Part shown: positions 32,871 to 57,498 of the stretch, one piece after another
Layout: the number at the start of each line of letters is the position of its first letter
Numbering within the stretch: position 1 is the first letter of the stretch
NCBI GenBank assembly: GCA_937923325.1
Contig: CAKZUQ010000013.1
Span: 124,001-188,000, forward strand
Reading direction: 5' to 3'
Origin: an uncultured Bacteriovoracaceae bacterium
Lineage (GTDB): Bacteria > Bdellovibrionota > Bacteriovoracia > Bacteriovoracales > Bacteriovoracaceae
DNA length: 64,000 bases
The notes under the pieces: generated by a model
What the model was told of the DNA's origin: nothing
The model's database searches: none
What the model saw: the letters and a program-made list of their open reading frames with translations, nothing else
Program-made: the position numbers and the translations under genes

Positions 32871-33281
32871 TTAAAGCAACTCAGTCTTATGAAGATCAAA
32901 CCAATCTATAAGTTCACTCTTACCAACCTTACCTGCAGCACAACCCTCAACAATATTCGCCAAAGAAGATTTTCCGTTCTTTTCTTTGAGACTATAGTTC
33001 AAAGCCCAGCCATTCATATTCATAAACTTAATGGCTACAAGGACCCCAACTCTTTTGTTCCCATCAAGAAATGCATGTGCTTGAACTAAATAAAAACAAA
33101 GCGCTCCTGCAATTTTAGCTATTCCTCCAGCAACAAAAGGATATGAACCAGGATAAAAAGCAGAATGAAGAGCACTTTCAATTTTAGCTCTATCAATAAG
33201 AGTAAAAGTACTACCTTCCTTTTTACATAAAAACTTATTTGTAAAAATAACCTGTTCAACAGTTGGAACTATTACTTTCAC
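32871..33281 (-). CDS. doc: Doc-type (Fic superfamily) toxin
   Basis: 136 residues. 'AHAFLDGNKRVGVLVAIKF' near residue 70 is the Doc form (HxFxDxNKR) of the Fic motif; phage P1 Doc phosphorylates elongation factor Tu. The start is GTG at 33281-33279, directly after the stop of the antitoxin gene (TAAGTG), so translation is coupled. The length matches Doc (about 125-135). All motif residues are kept, so it is probably active unless bound by its antitoxin. It sits among Rhs remnants, a mobile-type location. Confidence 0.88.
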   Translation of the reverse strand: MKVIVPTVEQVIFTNKFLCKKEGSTFTLIDRAKIESALHSAFYPGSYPFVAGGIAKIAGALCFYLVQAHAFLDGNKRVGVLVAIKFMNMNGWALNYSLKEKNGKSSLANIVEGCAAGKVGKSELIDWFDLHKTELL

Positions 33282-33515
33282 TTAAGCTAATTCACCTAAC
33301 GCTTTACTATGCTTAGAGAAAACTTGTTCTATCCCATCTTTCCAGTCACTATCCTTAGCTTCAATAGGCTCAAGCTCTATAGAGTTTGGTTCAGAAATAT
33401 ATTTTTTCACAGCAATATTAATCAATTGATTTAGCTTCAAACCATTCTTCATTGTATACTCGTCTACTTGAGAATCTAGTTGTTCATTAAATCTAACAGT
33501 TCTTGTTTTTGACAT
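33282..33515 (-). CDS. Ribbon-helix-helix antitoxin partner of Doc
   Basis: 77 residues from the ATG at 33515, preceded by GAGGAAACT. The N-terminal 'TRTVRFNEQLDSQVDEY' and 'LKLNQLINIAVKKYI' are those of ribbon-helix-helix repressors, and the acidic C-terminal tail ('EPNSIELEPIEAKDSDW') would bind the toxin. P1 Doc pairs with Phd, which has a different fold, so this is an RHH-Doc pairing. Longer starts in the same frame lie across the promoter and palindrome and are unlikely. Confidence 0.82.
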   Translation of the reverse strand: MSKTRTVRFNEQLDSQVDEYTMKNGLKLNQLINIAVKKYISEPNSIELEPIEAKDSDWKDGIEQVFSKHSKALGELA

Positions 33516-33554
33516 AGTTTCCTCACTTTCCAAGAGTTTATTGCTCTTCGGTAT

Positions 33555-33586
33555 ATTATAACACAAAATGAAGCAATTTTGCTTCA
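33555..33586 (-). promoter_or_regulatory. Toxin-antitoxin promoter with palindromic operator
   Basis: On the minus strand TATAAT (33560-33555) lies 39 bases before the antitoxin ATG. Just upstream, over the -35 region, is the inverted repeat TGAAGCAA-TT-TTGCTTCA (33569-33586); a third half-like GAAGCA follows at 33591. This is the layout of an autorepressed type II toxin-antitoxin promoter; repressor binding is inferred. Confidence 0.6.
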
Positions 33587-33669
33587 AAAGGAAGCACTCA
33601 AGCTCAACACAAGTAGCTGTAATCACGCAATTTTCCAATAATTTTCTCAAGCGAACTGATCAAAGGGCA

Positions 33670-33879
33670 TTAACAAAATCCCAGATCTAATAAATACAAG
33701 AAATTGATGAATCTAATAATACGATCTAGCTGGAATCTAAAACAATATAGTCCTGTTTCTTTATCTAGTTCTCTAGATGTATAAGCATATCTGTTTTCTG
33801 TGAAATTTGAACTAGTTGGATCTAGATGTTTCTCCAATTTAGTTTTTTCGTAAGCAGAATAACTATATCTTTGATAAAT
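33670..33879 (-). pseudogene. Rhs/YD-repeat core fragment B
   Basis: Start-less reading frame with 'YQRYSYSAYEKTKLEKHLDP' and 'NRYAYTSRELDKETGLYCFR', matching the Rhs core '..YrYtgRElDkeTGLYyyrARyYd'. The last part 'IIRFIN' recalls 'GRFis'. It runs into a TAA at 33672-33670. Copy A (32574-32792) has the same order of motifs in the same orientation. It is a decayed end of a Rhs gene or one of its duplicated C-terminal tips. Confidence 0.65.
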
Positions 33880-33901
33880 AAAAAAGGCCGCTTAAGCGAC
33901 C
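33879..33901 (-). terminator. Intrinsic terminator of the radical SAM gene
   Basis: On the minus strand GGTCGC-TTAA-GCGGCC (one G-T pair) followed by six T. It lies 30 bases after the stop of the radical SAM gene and directly abuts Rhs fragment B. Confidence 0.8.
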
Positions 33902-33930
33902 TTCCTATTAATTTAAATTTAATTATTTTG

Positions 33931-47971: not shown

Positions 47972-48688
47972 ATGATTGAAAACTTTAAAATAATTAAGGA
48001 AATTGATAGTTTAGATAGGAATATCAAGACTTTTATAGATCTTATTGAAAATCAGAATAAAAGAATTTTAAGTATAAATAATAAAATTAATGATAAAAAT
48101 GAAAAGATCGATAAACTAAATAAAGAACTAAAGTCTATAAGTTCAGAACTAACGAGTTCCGAAAATGAACTTTCATCCACTCAACAAAAATTAGAAATAA
48201 AAGTATCTCAAAAAGGACAAGTTTTCACAGATTCTCAAATCCAAGCATTAGATAAAGAAATAAAACTCTATGAAGAGAAAATAGATTCTTTAGAAGAAAC
48301 AGTTTTTAGCTTTATGGAAAAAAAAGAATCTATAGAAGAAAATATTAAAGACTCACATACTTTTATAAAAGGAGCTTCTAACTCACTAATAGAGATTCAA
48401 AAAGAAGTAGATATAGAAATTGAACAACTAACAAAGAAAAAAACAAATACGCAATTACGAGTAGACACTTTATTAAAACAATTACCTGAAGGCTATCAAT
48501 CAAAAATAAAGGGTATGCTAGATAAAGACTTTCGATCAACAATAGTTGCAACAATTGTTGATCGAAGTTGTAATTACTGCAGGGCCTCTTTGCCTACTCA
48601 ATTTATTTCTGATGTTGAAGACAAACACATATTAAAAACATGCAGTGCATGTAAACGCGTGTTTATTCCTTCAAGCTCTTCTTATTAA
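47972..48688 (+). CDS. Coiled-coil zinc-ribbon protein (DUF164/CdsZ-type)
   Basis: 238 residues. The first about 180 residues are a long two-stranded coiled coil ('KTFIDLIENQNKRILSINNK'). The C-terminus has a four-Cys zinc ribbon, 'CNYCRASLPTQFI' (about residues 200-203) and 'LKTCSACKRVFIP' (about 225-230). These proteins are widespread, with no settled enzymatic role. AAGGA before the ATG supports the start. The 3' end overlaps the RND gene (opposite strand) by 26 bases. Confidence 0.85.
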   Translation: MIENFKIIKEIDSLDRNIKTFIDLIENQNKRILSINNKINDKNEKIDKLNKELKSISSELTSSENELSSTQQKLEIKVSQKGQVFTDSQIQALDKEIKLYEEKIDSLEETVFSFMEKKESIEENIKDSHTFIKGASNSLIEIQKEVDIEIEQLTKKKTNTQLRVDTLLKQLPEGYQSKIKGMLDKDFRSTIVATIVDRSCNYCRASLPTQFISDVEDKHILKTCSACKRVFIPSSSSY

Positions 48689-51600
48689 TAAAGTCTACGT
48701 AGACTTTATAGCAGCATGGAACAAAAACTAGAGTTATCAATGATGAAAATAATAATCCATAAGCAAAACTTGTGGCCATAGGCTTTAAAAATGGATCTCC
48801 ACCTGGCATATGAGCAACTGGCAAAAGTCCAACAACAGTAGTCACAGTTGTTAGAACAACAGGTCTAAATCTTGATGACGTAGCCTTTACAATTGAGCTA
48901 AAACTTGAATCTTGCATTACGGCCCTATTAATAAAAGTAACTAAAACGATTGAATCGTTAATAACAACCCCGACAAGTCCCAAAATACCCATCAATGCCA
49001 TAAAACCAATAGATAGATCTAAAATCCAAAATGAAGCTACAACTCCAATAAGACTAAAAGGAATAGCTGTCATAACAATAAAAGGCTGACCGATACTTGA
49101 AAATTGCATTACAAGAATAATAAAAATAATAAAAACACAGGCAACTAAAGCTATTCCAAAACTTCTAAAAGACTCTAGAGTTTCTTTGTTTTCTCCTTCA
49201 AGTCTATATGTTATATCAGGGTACTTTTTCATAAGTTCAGGTAATATTATATCAATTTTTTCATTAACTTCTAAAGAAGTGGATTTAGTTAAGTCTACAT
49301 CACCAGTAAGTGAAAAAGCCTTTTGCCTATCTTTTCGCCGAATTACATAGACACCAGGAACTTCCTTAAAACTTGCTACCGCGCTTAGCCTTATTCTCAT
49401 CCCCATTTGATTTGTTATTCTAAGATTAGTTAAAATATCAGCACTTTCTCTAGATTTGTCATCTAAAGTTACAAGAACATCAACATCTTCATCATTCTTC
49501 TTTATAGTAGTTGCAACAATCCCCTCATAACCATTTCTTATTTCCATAGCTATATTTGAATTACTTACACCTAGTCTTCTTGCTTCTTTTGCATTAATTT
49601 GAACTAAGACTTGCTTTTTACCTTCTTCATAATCTAATTCTAAAGAGGTAACTCCATCAATTTCTAATATTTTTTCTTTTGCAGTCTTAGATAACTCTTT
49701 AAGATCATTAGTGTTATTTCCTAAAAATAGTACGTTTACTGCAGATCCTTTTGGTGGTCCTCCCGTAAATTTATTTAAACTGAACTCATAGTCTTTAATT
49801 TTTTCTTTTAACTCAGTACTTATGCCTGAAAGAATTTCATCTGTCGTTCGGTCTCTTTGATCATTCATAACAAGTTCTAAGTATACACTTCCATAATGAG
49901 AACCCGTTTTAGATCTTCCACCTTGAAAGAATTGAAATCCCGCACTACTTCTGATTCCCTTCACTTCATTTTCTTTTACGTTATTAAGAATAATCTCTTC
50001 AATTTTTTTTATTTCTTGATTTGTTCTTTCTAAACTTGTTCCAACTTTTGATTTGATATTAATTGAAGTCAAATTAACATCATCAGAAGGAAACATTTCT
50101 TTTCTCATTCCTTTTAGAACAACCACACTTGCTAAGAATGCAATAACAAAGATTAAAATTGTCTTTTTTGAATGAGTCATTGTTAAAACAAGATATTTTT
50201 CATAAACGACAATCCACTTTTTATACCAAGGTTCTTTATCTGTTTTTTTCAACTTAGGGGCAAAATCAGCTAAGTGACCTGGTAAGATTATGAAACACTC
50301 AAACCAAGACGCTGCAAGAGCAATGATTACAACTGCAGGAACAGACCAAAGAAACTTCCCCATTATTCCATCAATAAAGAAAAGTGATCCAAAGGCAACC
50401 ATAGTTGTAACAACTGTCCCAGTTACTGGCGCAAGTGTATCAATCGCAGCTTTTTTTGCTGCTTTTCGAGGATCTAGCCCATCTTCTAGATATTGATAAT
50501 ATTGCTCGGCAACTATAATAGAGTCATCAACAAGCATTCCTAAAACCATTATTAGTCCAAACATAGACATTAGATTTATCGTAACCCCTAAACTTCCCAT
50601 TAAAGAGAATGCTACCAAGAATGCAAAAGGTGCACCTAATGCAGTAATTATTGAAACCCTTAAATTCATAAATAAATACAAACTTAAAATAACTAAAAAG
50701 ATTCCTTGAACACCATTTTGAGTAAGAACTCCTAATCTTCTTTTTACGTAAAAAGAGAAATCATCATATATTTTATAATTTACATTTTCTTTTTTTGTGA
50801 ACTCTGCAATTGTTGCTTTAGTACTGGCAGCAGTAGCTAGTACATCAGCACTTGACTTTGCTTTAATATCCAAAAAGATGGCCTGCTCATTCTCAGCTTT
50901 TTCATACCTCTCCCACTCAGAAAAATTTAACTCTACAGATGCAACATCTTTAACTAAAATACTTTTTCCAATGTCATTAGATCTAAGAATGATATTTTCA
51001 ATATCTTTTTTTGTCTCTAATTCATTAAGTGTTCTAATTAGTTTTTCTGACGATGTATTTTTTGTACTTCCTGCAGATACATTTGTCTGTCTATCTTTAA
51101 TTGCACTTACAACTTCAAGTAATGATATATCATATAAATTTAAAAGCTCTGGATTGGCCTTAACATTAAAAACTTCATCTCTATATCCGCTCAAATCAAC
51201 AGATGAAATATTCTTATCAAGTTCTAATTTTCTTTGTAATCTTTTTGCTTTAATTCTTAGTTCTGACTCTGAAACACCCCAAAGAGCAATATTCATGATC
51301 CCTCTATTTTTAGTATTTCTTTTACTTACAATAGGGTCTTCAACTTCATCAGGTAGATCGGATATAGAATCTAAAGATGTTTGAGTATCTGCCAAGACAT
51401 CATCTACGTTATACTCAGGGTCAACTTTAAGAGAAACAATCAGGCCATTTTCACCACTTATTGTATTTAGCTCATCAATCCCATCAACAGCTTTTAATGC
51501 CTTTTCAACATCAATTGCTAATAGTTTTTCAACATCCTCAGTAGCAGCTCCAGGATATGGATATTGTACAATTACAAAGTTAAACTCAACATTTGGAAAT

Positions 51601-51710
51601 GTCTCTTTATTAAGAGTAAGTACCGAATATCCTCCCATAATAATAATTAAGACAGTTAAAAGATTTACAATAACTGAGTTATCTACAAAATAGTTAATCA
51701 TTTTTTTCAT
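48663..51710 (-). CDS. RND-family efflux transporter, inner membrane
   Basis: 1,015 residues with the twelve-helix RND pattern. 'SIIVAEQYYQYLEDGLDPRK' near residue 393 and 'GVVINDSIVLVTFINRAV' near 935 match the helix 4 and later-helix regions of AcrB-like pumps. The large loops (residues about 35-335 and about 545-850) are the periplasmic porter parts. It extrudes drugs, metals or lipids by proton exchange; substrate unknown. The TolC-like gene lies 3 bases upstream, but there is no membrane-fusion adaptor gene beside them. Confidence 0.9.
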   Translation of the reverse strand: MKKMINYFVDNSVIVNLLTVLIIIMGGYSVLTLNKETFPNVEFNFVIVQYPYPGAATEDVEKLLAIDVEKALKAVDGIDELNTISGENGLIVSLKVDPEYNVDDVLADTQTSLDSISDLPDEVEDPIVSKRNTKNRGIMNIALWGVSESELRIKAKRLQRKLELDKNISSVDLSGYRDEVFNVKANPELLNLYDISLLEVVSAIKDRQTNVSAGSTKNTSSEKLIRTLNELETKKDIENIILRSNDIGKSILVKDVASVELNFSEWERYEKAENEQAIFLDIKAKSSADVLATAASTKATIAEFTKKENVNYKIYDDFSFYVKRRLGVLTQNGVQGIFLVILSLYLFMNLRVSIITALGAPFAFLVAFSLMGSLGVTINLMSMFGLIMVLGMLVDDSIIVAEQYYQYLEDGLDPRKAAKKAAIDTLAPVTGTVVTTMVAFGSLFFIDGIMGKFLWSVPAVVIIALAASWFECFIILPGHLADFAPKLKKTDKEPWYKKWIVVYEKYLVLTMTHSKKTILIFVIAFLASVVVLKGMRKEMFPSDDVNLTSINIKSKVGTSLERTNQEIKKIEEIILNNVKENEVKGIRSSAGFQFFQGGRSKTGSHYGSVYLELVMNDQRDRTTDEILSGISTELKEKIKDYEFSLNKFTGGPPKGSAVNVLFLGNNTNDLKELSKTAKEKILEIDGVTSLELDYEEGKKQVLVQINAKEARRLGVSNSNIAMEIRNGYEGIVATTIKKNDEDVDVLVTLDDKSRESADILTNLRITNQMGMRIRLSAVASFKEVPGVYVIRRKDRQKAFSLTGDVDLTKSTSLEVNEKIDIILPELMKKYPDITYRLEGENKETLESFRSFGIALVACVFIIFIILVMQFSSIGQPFIVMTAIPFSLIGVVASFWILDLSIGFMALMGILGLVGVVINDSIVLVTFINRAVMQDSSFSSIVKATSSRFRPVVLTTVTTVVGLLPVAHMPGGDPFLKPMATSFAYGLLFSSLITLVFVPCCYKVYVDFINKKSLKE

Positions 51711-51713
51711 ATA

Positions 51714-53120
51714 TTAATCCCTGTATGAGTCTAGATAAGCTTCAATATTACCTTCTAAGAATGCTAAGTTTGCTATTAAAAGCTCTAGTCCAGCAAGATT
51801 AGACTTTTCTTGTAGTATTGCACTAATATAGTTCTCTTCTCTTCTTAATACTTCATCAAAGTTACTTTGCCCTCTCGAGTATAATTTATTTGTTTCTTCT
51901 AAAGCCTTTTTTAGTAAGAATGATCTTTTTTTGGAGTTATCCAAAGCATTTTGTGTGAAGTAAATTTGTTTCTTTATCGCATTTATACTTGTTTGGATTT
52001 CCCCTTTTTTATTCTCAAGTTGCATTTCTCTTAACTTTTTATCTAGAGTTAATCGATTCTTAAGAGCAGAGTTTTTTTCAAGGCCTAAAGGGATTGTCAT
52101 AATTAATGATGCTGACCTGTTATGATCACCTTCGAAGTTGTCAGAATAAGCTTTTGATCGGCTATTACGAACTCCATTTGTTTCATACTCTAAATTTAAA
52201 GCAAGTCCAATTTTTGAAGTATTTTTTATTTGTTCTAATGACCTCCTAGAGACTTCAAGTCGTTTCTCTAAAAGATCTAGTGTTGGATTTTTCCTTCTGG
52301 CTGCTTCAAAAGTAATGGGAACTTTATCCCACTTTACATACTGCAAAAGAGAATCATCAATTTTAACTCCTAAAATAAATTCTAAAATAGATAAGTTTTC
52401 TTCGAGGTTCTTCTTTGAGTTCTCAATACTTTCACTTTGAGTGTGATAAGCACTTTGCGCTAGATAAAGATCAACTTTTCTACTAGAACCTGATTTAACT
52501 CTTTTAGATAGTAATTTTATCCTTTTTAAATCTTTTTTTACACTTTTTCGAGTTAATCTAATTTGATATAAACTTAACTTCGCTTGAATAAATCTAGTAA
52601 AAACATCTAAGAATTCTTGCTCTTGCTCTAGGTTTTGTGAAGAAAGCTGTTCATCAAAATTAGATTTTACAAGATTAGATTGAATTGCAATGTCTTTTTT
52701 AAAAAAGTCATAGCTATATGAGACTTTAGTGCGAACATCATATTGTAAATCTCCATTGAAGTTTGCCCTTAGTGCCGGTTGCCAGTTAGATAAGTCGTAA
52801 TCTATATGTGAGTGTTCAACTGCAAATGTTCCAAAATATTTGGTTGCCTTTGACAACTTTGCCGAATATGTAGAAACAATTGTTTCTCTTGGACTAAATG
52901 CATTTAAATTTTTTAAAGCATCGTCTTGATAGGCAGCTGATAGATCCAAAGAGAAGTCATTAAATTTTTTATCGTAATTAAAAGTTTCAACAACTGTTGA
53001 TTTTGAAAGGTCTCTTATTTCTTTAGTTTTTGATTTCTTATAGGCCGTCCATATTTGCTGGAAAGCTCCAAAAGAATTAACAGAAATCAAACTGATCATG
53101 CATAGCAATATAAACTTCAC
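51714..53120 (-). CDS. TolC-family outer-membrane channel
   Basis: 468 residues from a GTG at 53120, which has CAAGGAG five bases ahead; the longer ATG frame upstream is not supported. Signal peptide 'VKFILLCMISLISVNSFG'. The sequence has the two repeated helical hairpins of outer membrane efflux proteins, with 'KSGSSRKVDLYLAQSAYHTQ' near residue 210 and 'LYSRGQSNFDEVLRREENYI' near 420 as the paired segments. It would serve as the outer exit for the downstream RND pump (3-base gap). Divergent from rnpB. Confidence 0.85.
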   Translation of the reverse strand: MKFILLCMISLISVNSFGAFQQIWTAYKKSKTKEIRDLSKSTVVETFNYDKKFNDFSLDLSAAYQDDALKNLNAFSPRETIVSTYSAKLSKATKYFGTFAVEHSHIDYDLSNWQPALRANFNGDLQYDVRTKVSYSYDFFKKDIAIQSNLVKSNFDEQLSSQNLEQEQEFLDVFTRFIQAKLSLYQIRLTRKSVKKDLKRIKLLSKRVKSGSSRKVDLYLAQSAYHTQSESIENSKKNLEENLSILEFILGVKIDDSLLQYVKWDKVPITFEAARRKNPTLDLLEKRLEVSRRSLEQIKNTSKIGLALNLEYETNGVRNSRSKAYSDNFEGDHNRSASLIMTIPLGLEKNSALKNRLTLDKKLREMQLENKKGEIQTSINAIKKQIYFTQNALDNSKKRSFLLKKALEETNKLYSRGQSNFDEVLRREENYISAILQEKSNLAGLELLIANLAFLEGNIEAYLDSYRD

Positions 53121-53197
53121 GTACACTCCTTGAATTTTACAGGAGTATAATAAATATAGACTCTTATGAATAGTTTTGAATTTTAGACAAGTGATTA

Positions 53198-53226
53198 TTG
53201 TCATAGAAACTTATAAATATTATATA
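53198..53226 (+). promoter_or_regulatory. Promoter of rnpB
   Basis: TTGTCA (53198-53203), 17-base spacer and TATATA (53221-53226), putting transcription start near 53233, exactly where the P1 helix of RNase P RNA begins. Confidence 0.65.
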
Positions 53227-53232
53227 GGTACT

Positions 53233-53533
53233 GCCAAGAAGAATAGATTATCGCGAGCTTTTATTAGCTCGAGGAAAGTCCGGACACCATAGAGTAGCGT
53301 AGCGGGTAATGCCCGTCCACCGTGAGGTGAGGACAAGTGCAACAGAAAGTATGTACAGGTAATGCTGTAGTGAAACCAGGTAAACTCTACGCGGTGCAAA
53401 TCCAAATAGGCCAGTGCTTTAGCATTTCTCGTGTGAACTGGCGGGTAGGATGCTTGAACCCTAGAGTAATCTAGGGTCTAGATGAATGATAATCCTTTGA
53501 CAGAATCCGGCTTAAAATTCTTCTTGGCTTTTT
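53233..53533 (+). ncRNA. rnpB: RNase P RNA
   Basis: Catalytic RNA that removes the 5' leader from precursor tRNA. The conserved blocks are in order: 'GAGGAAAGTCCGGACACC' near 53272, 'ACAGAAA' near 53342, 'GTGAAACCAGGTAAACTC' near 53373, 'GGTGCAAATCC' near 53394 and 'GATGAATGATAATCC' near 53480, then 'ACAGAATCCGGCTTA'. The 5' and 3' ends (53233-53244 and 53517-53528) form a perfect 12-bp P1 helix, followed by TTTTTC, which doubles as a terminator. At about 300 nt it is a compact bacterial type A RNA. An open frame on the opposite strand is incidental. Confidence 0.97.
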
Positions 53534-53617
53534 CAAAAATGAAAACCTTTTAATCTAATGACTTCATTTATACTCATTGTAATTCTAGTAGATTATAAAA
53601 GTCACATCTTTCGTGAT

Positions 53618-53647
53618 CCTCAATGAAAAAGACCTTTTTTAATGAGG
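53618..53647 (+). promoter_or_regulatory. Hairpin that hides the ribosome binding site of a 21-residue peptide
   Basis: CCTCA at 53618-53622 pairs with TGAGG at 53643-53647, continued by seven further A-T or G-T pairs with one A-A mismatch, around a GACC loop. The right arm contains the GAGG ribosome binding site, nine bases before ATG 53657. It would keep translation low unless opened. Confidence 0.65.
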
Positions 53648-53656
53648 TTAAACACT

Positions 53657-53722
53657 ATGGAAGATGTAATTAGGGTGCTGACTCTAGTTAGTTTGATTCT
53701 ACAGCTGTTAGCTGTTGTTTGA
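53657..53722 (+). CDS. 21-residue hydrophobic peptide, candidate type I toxin
   Basis: The frame reads MEDVIRVLTLVSLILQLLAV plus one more V, then TGA. Three acidic or basic residues at the start are followed by a single hydrophobic helix long enough to span a membrane. GAGG lies nine bases ahead inside a hairpin, and a perfect hairpin follows 20 bases after the stop. Together with an antisense promoter at 53773-53800 this is the layout of short membrane toxins under antisense control, such as Ibs, TxpA or BsrG, but I see no sequence match to a known family. Alternatively it is a chance frame; the surrounding structures argue against that. Sense promoter: a weak TATAAA at 53594-53599. Confidence 0.5.
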   Translation: MEDVIRVLTLVSLILQLLAVV

Positions 53723-53742
53723 GATATAACTAAGTAAGCTTT

Positions 53743-53770
53743 ATGAGTATGTGCACCAACACATACTCAT
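53743..53770 (+). terminator. Perfect hairpin after the peptide ORF
   Basis: 11-bp stem ATGAGTATGTG/CACATACTCAT with a six-base loop CACCAA, 20 bases after the peptide stop. No T-run follows on the plus strand, so it may protect the 3' end or form the shared overlap with the antisense RNA, rather than being a classic terminator. Confidence 0.6.
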
Positions 53771-53772
53771 CT

Positions 53773-53800
53773 ATTATAGCAGATCTAAATATTCTCTCAA
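53773..53800 (-). promoter_or_regulatory. Antisense promoter with extended -10
   Basis: On the minus strand TTGAGA (53800-53795), 16-base spacer, then TGCTATAAT, an extended -10 with a perfect TATAAT (53778-53773). Transcription would start near 53766 and run through the hairpin and the 3' end of the peptide ORF, in antisense. Confidence 0.6.
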
Positions 53801-53840
53801 AAAATTTAAATAGCTTCTAATTCATTGAAATTACGACTGA

Positions 53841-54554
53841 CTATGTAAGCTTTTCAATATTAGTGAAAGCTATCTGAATCTTAGTTCAAATGAGAGCAAA
53901 GTTCAAAATGCTGCTCAAATAGAACAACTTCTAATAAACTCTTTCGTATCTAACTCATCTTCTGCTTTAAACGGAAATGTTGACTCTGGATTTGATACTC
54001 AAATCAATAGCTCTAGTGGATCAAAATCTTTAGATGGTTTCTCTTCACTTACTTTAGGTCCATCGCTTATTGTAGCGAACACTATTGATTCTATCTCATA
54101 CACAATAGAACATGTTGATGATGATGGTGAACTTGGTGGAACACGAAGAAATTTATATGTTGAAAATCCTGTTGCTCAAGATTCTGCAATTGGTGATTTA
54201 CATGGGATAGACTTTCGTTACGGCTCACTAACAACAAGAAACTCTATGCTTTTAAGCTTCAACTCTCCTATTGCTCACTTTGGAATAGATCTTTTAGACT
54301 TTGAATCAGACTCAAACTTTACACTTGGTCAAGTAAGGGCCTACGATTGTTCTACTACTCCAGTAAAGATTTATGAAAACGATATAAATTTCAATTCTGA
54401 AAATGGTGACTCGGAAATACACTTTTTAGGAATTATTGCCAACCATGCTTCTATATGTAAAATAATTATTGCTGTTGGAGACGATAGCTCTGGAGAAGGT
54501 AAAAGTGAAAGGTTTGCTATCGACAATCTAAGATTTGGAACTGCAACAAATTAA
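53841..54554 (+). pseudogene. 5'-truncated exported/surface protein gene
   Basis: The frame is open for 237 codons from a TGA at 53838-53840 to a TAA at 54552-54554, yet has no ATG, GTG or TTG until 54246. The reading is protein-like, with 'SGFDTQINSSSGSKSLDGFS', 'ENPVAQDSAIGDLHGIDFRY', 'SFNSPIAHFGIDLLDFESDS' and 'GKSERFAIDNLRFG', which resemble extracellular surface domains of the PEP-CTERM-associated kind. The missing 5' end suggests a deletion or rearrangement next to the small antisense locus. A short product from 54246 (102 codons) is possible but would lack the export signal. Confidence 0.55.
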
Positions 54555-55585
54555 ATTTTCAAAGCTTTAAGAGAAGCTATTGTTAAATTAAGTTTAGGGT
54601 TATTTAAATTAATAAAGTTATATTTTTTAATTTCTGTCCCAACAATTTTCTTAAATTCTTCTTTTGAGCATATCAATACATGATTTGTTATTTTATATTG
54701 GGTTATACTTGTTTTTATTGCAGGTAAAAGCTCTGACTCAATTATTTTTTTTAAAAATGGGTATTGTTTTAATTTTTCATCTTCGGAATAAATTGTATAT
54801 GTAGGTATTTCGTTTTGACCAGACAACCACTCGTCTTTACTTTTTCTATAAACTAAAATTGAATCATTTTCTACAACGACAAACCTTAAGAGTGTTAATT
54901 CATAAAACTTCTTTTTTTCTTTTTTATCTTGAACAGGAATAGATAATGATTCACCTTTTTTATAAGAGGTACATTCATTACTCATTGGACAAATTAAGCA
55001 ATCTGCCTTTCGAGATTGGCAATAAACTCTTCCAAGATCCATAAGGGCTTCATTATAAGCTCTTGCTCCATATTTATCTAAGTCGGTAGCGATGAGATTT
55101 TGTTTAAAGTCTTCATTTATTTTTTTTATTAGTTTTGGGCCTTTTTTTACTAAGATATAGTTTAAACGAGATAAAACTCGTTCTAAGTTTGCATCGACAC
55201 AAAGAGCTTTTTTATTTCCTCCAATGGCCATTATTGCATTTGCTGTATACTCTCCAATTCCAGGAGCTTTGATTAGTTCCTCATATTTTAGTGGTATAGT
55301 TGAATTAAAGTTTTCTTGAAAAAATTTACAGGATTTGTGTAAATTACGAGCTCTTCTATAATAGCCCAAACCTTTCCAATTGATTGTTAAATCTTCTTCA
55401 GTTGAATTTGCCAAGGAATCAATGTCTGGATATATCGTTAAAAACTTTTCAAAGTGATTTAAAACTGTTGAAACAGTTGTTTGCTGAAGCATTATTTCAG
55501 AAACAAGTGTTCTATATAGAGTTCTATTTTTTCTCCATGATAAATGAGAAAATTCTTTTTTACTCCATTCAATGAGTTCTTTCAT
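54551..55585 (-). CDS. mutY: A/G-specific adenine glycosylase
   Basis: Base-excision repair enzyme that removes A opposite 8-oxoguanine. 344 residues. 'SEIMLQQTTVSTVLNHFEKF' carries the catalytic Glu (about 29); 'APGIGEYTANAIMAIG' is the helix-hairpin-helix near 108; 'CVDANLERVLSRL' has the catalytic Asp (about 131). The iron-sulfur site is C-x6-C-x2-C-x5-C in 'CQSRKADCLICPMSNEC'. The C-terminal NUDIX-like part ('LRFVVVENDSILVYRKSKDE') recognises 8-oxoguanine. It overlaps the preceding pseudogene by 4 bases. Confidence 0.94.
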   Translation of the reverse strand: MKELIEWSKKEFSHLSWRKNRTLYRTLVSEIMLQQTTVSTVLNHFEKFLTIYPDIDSLANSTEEDLTINWKGLGYYRRARNLHKSCKFFQENFNSTIPLKYEELIKAPGIGEYTANAIMAIGGNKKALCVDANLERVLSRLNYILVKKGPKLIKKINEDFKQNLIATDLDKYGARAYNEALMDLGRVYCQSRKADCLICPMSNECTSYKKGESLSIPVQDKKEKKKFYELTLLRFVVVENDSILVYRKSKDEWLSGQNEIPTYTIYSEDEKLKQYPFLKKIIESELLPAIKTSITQYKITNHVLICSKEEFKKIVGTEIKKYNFINLNNPKLNLTIASLKALKI

Positions 55586-56938: not shown

Positions 56939-57009
56939 TTCTTACTCCTTGTAAGTTCCCAATATTCTTATCGGATGTGAAATAAAATTCCTTAATGCAA
57001 TTTTATTTC

Positions 57010-57026
57010 TTGACGCAACTAGTCAA
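57010..57026. promoter_or_regulatory. Inverted repeat in the XRE/pentapeptide gap
   Basis: TTGAC (57010-57014) and GTCAA (57022-57026) form an inverted repeat with a seven-base gap. The left arm is also the best -35 (TTGACG) for the pentapeptide gene, with an ACTATA at 57034-57039 (18-base spacing). It could be an XRE operator; inferred only. Confidence 0.4.
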
Positions 57027-57069
57027 TCGTGAGACTATATATTCAGGCAAGAGAACAAGAGGGATTACT

Positions 57070-57498
57070 ATGAAAACTCAAATTTTAAGCTTTAAAAGTA
57101 GAATAAAAACAGGCACTTACCTATTTATCAACAACACTACAGAGTTGAATACTATTAAGGATAAAATGAGCATCTCTGGTTCTAATATAAATAATAATCA
57201 TTATGAAAATGTCATTTTTAGCGATTGCACATTCCAATCAAGTGACATTTGTAATTGCAAGTTCATCAATTGTTTATTTTTAAATTGCAAGTTCAACTTT
57301 TGTAAACTTGAAAATTGCAATTTTATTTCGTGCACGATAGAGGATACCCTATTTTACCTAACCAATTCCCTTAATTGCAATTTTCTATCGTGCACGTTTA
57401 ATAACATAGAGAGCATCGAGTCATACAATAACAATGGATATATCCATAATTGCAAGGACTTAGACAACAAAAATTCAAATTTCGCTATTGCAGCTTAA
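57070..57498 (+). CDS. Pentapeptide-repeat protein, Cys-rich
   Basis: About 142 residues from the ATG at 57070, with AGAGGG six bases ahead. From about residue 42 it shows the five-residue rhythm of right-handed quadrilateral beta-helices: 'VIFSDCTFQSSDICNCKFIN', then 'LNCKFNFCKLENCNFISC'. Leu is replaced by Cys/Phe at many inner sites, so the Cys content is high. The octamer AATTGCAA recurs at 57253, 57283, 57313, 57373 and 57448, all multiples of 15 bases apart, as expected for five-codon repeats. Some relatives mimic DNA and inhibit gyrase; no such claim is made here. Divergent from an XRE regulator. Confidence 0.8.
   Translation: MKTQILSFKSRIKTGTYLFINNTTELNTIKDKMSISGSNINNNHYENVIFSDCTFQSSDICNCKFINCLFLNCKFNFCKLENCNFISCTIEDTLFYLTNSLNCNFLSCTFNNIESIESYNNNGYIHNCKDLDNKNSNFAIAA

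Follow-up and report, generated by a model that had tools for sequence, protein, structure and literature searches.

What, if anything, does the DNA between the RNase P RNA gene and a mutY-like gene of this Bacteriovoracaceae bacterium encode? In the 64,000-nucleotide stretch analysed here (the window), rnpB of class A lies on the plus strand (53235-53530); its match to Rfam RF00010 scores 237.5 bits, the cut-off being 100. The mutY-like gene (54551-55585, PF00730 and PF00633) converges on it from the minus strand, and among the best 120 of 7395 relatives, the window's own protein being the first, its product is 58% identical to that of a Bacteriovoracaceae bacterium and 55% to that of Halobacteriovorax sp. 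GB3, the seven closest other relatives lying at 63-79%; the host probably belongs in or near that family. The original prediction placed a new type I toxin-antitoxin locus beside rnpB, and each of the sequence features it named is indeed found at its coordinates. The fold described below does not originate in rnpB itself, whose Rfam match ends at 53530. By eye, a short A+T-rich hairpin followed by TTTT (53526-53551, plus strand) is the probable rnpB terminator. A small locus acting like a type I pair is our leading reading of the gap, held tentatively and unproven, and the original interpretation is partly supported.

The proposed toxin is a 21-residue open reading frame on the plus strand (53657-53722) translating to MEDVIRVLTLVSLILQLLAVV, with GAGG 9 nt 5' of its ATG. 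It could be a toxin or a severed signal peptide. Its best 15-residue hydropathy is 2.73, and its size is well below the 60 residues under which type I toxins fall, the hydrophobic helix being judged by hydropathy alone. In dinucleotide shuffles of the gap (53531-53866), an 18-60-residue ORF with a ribosome site reached a hydropathy of at least 2.5 in 1 of 500 cases and of at least 2.0 in 7 of 500. No other ORF on either strand of the window passes the 2.5 filter. The peptide codons, by contrast with those of the genes, look non-coding: they score -0.05, where genes average 0.37. Of 497 gene pieces 97% score higher, and of 101 antisense open pieces 79% score lower; a value this low occurs in only 3 of 47 hydrophobic gene pieces. 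CTG supplies two of the six leucine codons, versus 27 of the 1123 leucines in the genes counted.

The folding of the sense strand, a check named beforehand, bore out the claim that the ribosome site is buried. The minimum-energy fold nests two plus-strand stems over GAGG and the start codon. The outer one pairs 53604-53615 with 53656-53667 in 12 pairs and also covers the start codon of the ORF; the inner one (53618-53647) forms 12 pairs in its 13 positions, with one A/A mismatch and a loop of 4. The unpaired probability of GAGG is 0.0006, the next lowest value being 0.003 among the 25 genes with a recognizable site (31 were examined), so that it is more closed than all 25; shuffles equalled this closure in 10 of 1000 cases. 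Of six transcript models, five gave a value of 0.00 and the remaining one, which lacks the outer arm, gave 0.01. Ribosome-site hiding, a major hallmark of type I loci according to the available text of PMC6733600, is thus extreme at the candidate locus by the GAGG measure. This hallmark of a type I primary transcript is found here computationally and through GAGG; the broader zone, 5-16 bases upstream of the ORF, has an ordinary mean openness, lower values being found in 21 of 31 genes, and 3 of the 31 have a start codon as closed as that of the ORF.

The gap as a whole is also strongly structured, with z of -4.7 and -4.96 in two calculations for the sense strand and -4.1 for the antisense strand. 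It has the best fold of the 10 gaps of at least 100 bases between the listed genes from 2472 to 63014, and its best tile ranks third in a coarse scan of 1420 tiles. The strongest tile of that scan (57241) falls within a gene for a pentapeptide-repeat-like protein (56995-57498, plus strand) whose Pfam matches are below curated cut-offs. The second-best gap fold (33651-33930, z -4.4) lies beyond what looks like a type II toxin-antitoxin pair, composed of a small protein that matches no Pfam family and, directly behind it, a Fic/Doc-family protein (32871-33650, minus strand; PF02661, E 8e-7).

Downstream of the ORF, the perfect 11-bp hairpin of the original prediction is confirmed at 53743-53770, with a loop of 6 and no T-run on either side. 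Only 2 of 500 shuffled gaps contain one, and the window holds just two such hairpins, compared with none in 10 window shuffles. The other (1479-1507, loop 7; loops of 3-8 were allowed) likewise has no T-run. A mobile palindromic element was considered and rejected, as all further matches to the hairpin arm in the window carry 1-2 mismatches, and their number, 21 versus 17.5 expected, is that of chance. The hairpin directly follows the first copy of a 14-nt direct repeat (53729-53742) that matches the second copy (53840-53853, both on the plus strand) at 13 of 14 positions with a spacing of 111; this repeat separates the ORF from the gene remnant discussed below, and comparable repeats arose in 4 of 200 shuffles.

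The antisense RNA is the part of the original prediction that fared less well. The promoter-like TTGAGA-16-TATAAT exists on the minus strand (53800-53773), matches the consensus at 11 of 12 positions and has TG before the second hexamer. Across the window such 11/12 sites are no commoner than chance predicts (4 observed versus 5, 1 and 5 in three shuffles) and occur on either strand in 12 of 500 shuffled gaps, so this one is weak evidence for an antisense promoter. The RNA would presumably start near 53766, judged by the distance we assume from the -10 element. This position falls within the hairpin, so the antisense RNA would miss its outermost pairs and carry a shortened 5' stem. An alternative role for the minus-strand site, as promoter of the efflux operon at 48663-53204, was discarded since rnpB intervenes and a nearer site (53180-53153, 9/12) is available. 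The outer-membrane efflux protein of that operon (51714-53204, minus strand, PF02321) is listed from an ATG about 84 bases upstream of a better-looking start, by eye a GTG at 53120 behind AAGGAG and followed by a signal-peptide-like stretch. On the sense strand, the best promoter-like site of the gap matches at 8 of 12 positions under the scan rules. Neither strand of the gap yielded a terminator-like site at the thresholds of two scans, both crude enough to leave the apparent rnpB terminator unreported. Of the four type I hallmarks announced within 180 bases, the ORF, the hidden site and the hairpin stand, and the antisense RNA is a prediction from one consensus match at chance density. None of 500 shuffled gaps combined an ORF of hydropathy at least 2.0, an 11-bp hairpin and an 11/12 promoter.

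What the original account overlooked is a decapitated lipoprotein gene directly downstream, from which the part corresponding to its relatives' leader is missing. Its body (53862-54554, plus strand, 5' limit approximate) is open, with neither start codon nor signal peptide, and is 52-71% identical to six relatives of 246-271 residues (P0001-P0006). These begin with a signal peptide and lipobox (consensus MKKxLL...GCGKNA), the cysteine standing at codons 15 to 18. The window copy lacks any such leader in frame with the body: the frame is interrupted by stops up to 53840 and then offers no ATG, GTG or TTG until 54246. Nonetheless the body has no internal stop, retains 66 of the 67 columns invariant in the six relatives and has a codon score of 0.33, a normal gene level (mean 0.37). 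Each relative, compared with the others in the same way, kept 66 of 66 to 81 invariant columns. In P0001, P0002 and P0004, three of the six, the lipoprotein and a MutY relative probably also lie side by side. An open body with nearly all its invariant columns means that the truncation is recent, that the assembly is in error or that translation is unusual; as judged from these relatives, the gap is bordered by an apparently recent gene truncation. Translation of an unusual kind would have ribosomes initiate at the hidden GAGG and ATG, synthesize the hydrophobic leader and cross the hairpin stretch of about 140 bases, by bypass or frameshift, into the body. Such recoding would account for a start-less body staying clean and constrained, and we nevertheless regard it as highly improbable.

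The truncated gene may instead be a rival source of the hydrophobic ORF and its ribosome site, which would then be the severed 5' end of the lipoprotein gene. An insertion or rearrangement bearing the hairpin and the 14-nt repeat would have detached the ribosome site, the start codon and the signal peptide from the body, with at least one frameshift besides. The body lacks exactly this part while keeping its invariant columns and an uninterrupted frame; a body still this clean suggests a recent loss, so that the old leader would be expected nearby. The 13/14 repeat lies between ORF and body, and a lipobox-like AVSC overlaps the ORF in another frame, its cysteine standing at codon 19 (15 to 18 in the relatives); a shifted-frame lipobox at codons 14-21 arises in 66 of 3000 shuffles. 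However, the peptide begins with the acidic MEDVIR and lacks the lysines present in five of the six relatives, its codon score is low for a hydrophobic gene piece, and several separate events would have to be packed into some 60 ancestral bases, with the roughly 690 bases of the body remaining clean. Ungapped similarity to the relatives' leaders is at chance (117 of 300 shuffles as good), and when frameshifts and one long insertion were allowed 66 of 160 shuffles did as well, the best path bypassing the ORF; both comparisons have little power on hydrophobic leaders, and the profile left out P0005 and P0006 owing to their lengths. On balance we consider a severed leader doubtful; were it true, it would warn that the remains of a signal peptide, ribosome site included, can mimic a type I toxin.

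We give equal weight, and hence equal doubt, to a structured RNA or leader that encodes no peptide, whose stems would be regulatory or stabilizing on either strand and whose ORF would be incidental. The stable folds of both strands (z -4.7 sense, -4.1 antisense) suit it, as does a codon score below that of 97% of gene pieces, tempered by its exceeding 79% of antisense pieces. Against it, the gap matches no Rfam family above cut-off, a hydrophobic ORF with a ribosome site came up in only 1 of 500 shuffles, and the sole same-strand frame that a leader could serve on the way to mutY lacks a usual start codon as far as 54246. More improbable, in our judgement, is that chance produced the whole arrangement, the gap being an A+T-rich scar of recent rearrangement, or an error of assembly, whose unrelated fragments happen to mimic a toxin-antitoxin locus. 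The features were chosen after the fact and the promoter match is at chance density; moreover, 10 gaps of at least 100 bases per roughly 60 kb imply several hundred in a genome of a few megabases, so that each genome should contain about one ORF of 1-in-500 rarity. The joint occurrence in none of 500 shuffles speaks against chance, and closure of the ribosome site adds a further factor of about 1 in 100. The weights given to the four readings are judgements and not computed posteriors.

Database searches agree with the original statement that the sequence recalls no known family: no match from Pfam, NCBIfam or Rfam exceeds its cut-off. The peptide hit no Pfam or NCBIfam family at E 10, HMMER filters being liable to drop so short a query, and the gap gave three Rfam matches at E 10, none above cut-off and none to Sib. 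The best of these, the SymR antitoxin (E 0.11; 20.9 bits where 61 are required), was taken as chance. The tBLASTn search of the peptide that had been named beforehand as a check was run on plasmids and phages and returned no match. Plasmids searched with 53540-54560 and with P0001 were equally empty, as were phages searched with the gap. Genome contigs searched with the MutY protein yielded one distant contig (35% identity over residues 24-185), and when 192 genomes from the phylum of this contig were searched with rnpB, 19 gave matches, all fragmentary; the 39 of these genomes that were listed measure 0.5-2 Mb. This phylum was therefore judged not to be that of the host, and loci L002-L021 were set aside. 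Among viral contigs, the rnpB stretch found none in one scan and one (L022) in another, the 3' flank of L022 being unrelated by eye; the lipoprotein alignment gave 82 candidates, none of them confirmed, the hairpin gave none, and the MutY alignment gave four at 29-42%, none a near relative. The accessible text of an RNA-seq study of Bdellovibrio (PMC3627812) does not contain the terms 'rnpB' or 'RNase P', and among the titles listed in a literature search none paired rnpB with type I toxin-antitoxin systems.

In the type I-like reading, which we still place first, a sense RNA would start near 53600 and fold so as to conceal GAGG and the start codon, as computation predicts. It would encode a membrane peptide of 21 residues, and an RNA from about 53766 on the opposite strand might base-pair with both hairpin and ORF, so marking the messenger for cleavage. 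Opening of the hidden site or loss of the antisense RNA would then allow the peptide to be made and, by analogy with known toxins, the membrane to be depolarized. The lipoprotein gene next to it may have lost its 5' end when the locus arrived, or through the event that brought it. The hidden ribosome site, the size and hydrophobicity of the peptide and the antisense promoter-like site just beyond the ORF argue for this reading. Against it stand the lack of a terminator-like site at the thresholds used, a hairpin without a T-run, a best sense promoter-like match of 8/12, gene-unlike codons and no family match; in addition, the part missing from the neighbouring gene is of the very kind that the ORF resembles.

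If correct, this reading would place a type I-like locus, unrelated in sequence to those known, in or near Bacteriovoracaceae, kin of predatory bacteria. Bdellovibrio and its kin were long classed as Proteobacteria. Among the titles listed in searches on Bdellovibrio and toxin-antitoxin systems, none concerned a type I locus in that group. Ibs peptides of Escherichia coli are about the size of the candidate, and the antisense Sib RNA covers the ibs ORF. The likeness to Ibs/Sib lies in a peptide that is very short, hydrophobic and devoid of positive charge at its C-terminus; the difference is that the candidate matches no Pfam, NCBIfam or Rfam family and that its antisense RNA is a prediction. 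The candidate shares a C-terminus free of positive residues with IbsC, ShoB and DinQ, as described in the available part of PMC8309996, and this too speaks for the type I-like reading. With AapA/IsoA of Helicobacter, as far as the text available from PMC6733600 describes it, the candidate shares a ribosome site hidden in hairpins and, as predicted here, a cis-antisense RNA; AapA messengers also use 5'-3' long-distance pairing, whereas the minimum-energy fold of the candidate contains none. MsoT1/MsoA1 of Microcystis differs in that its toxin has two predicted membrane helices and was assayed for toxicity in E. coli, the candidate being known from sequence alone. According to the accessible text of PMC12390103, Proteobacteria, Firmicutes and Tenericutes were the only phyla with identified type I loci before that cyanobacterial case, and MsoT1/MsoA1 provides a precedent for a type I-like locus beyond the phyla then known to carry one.
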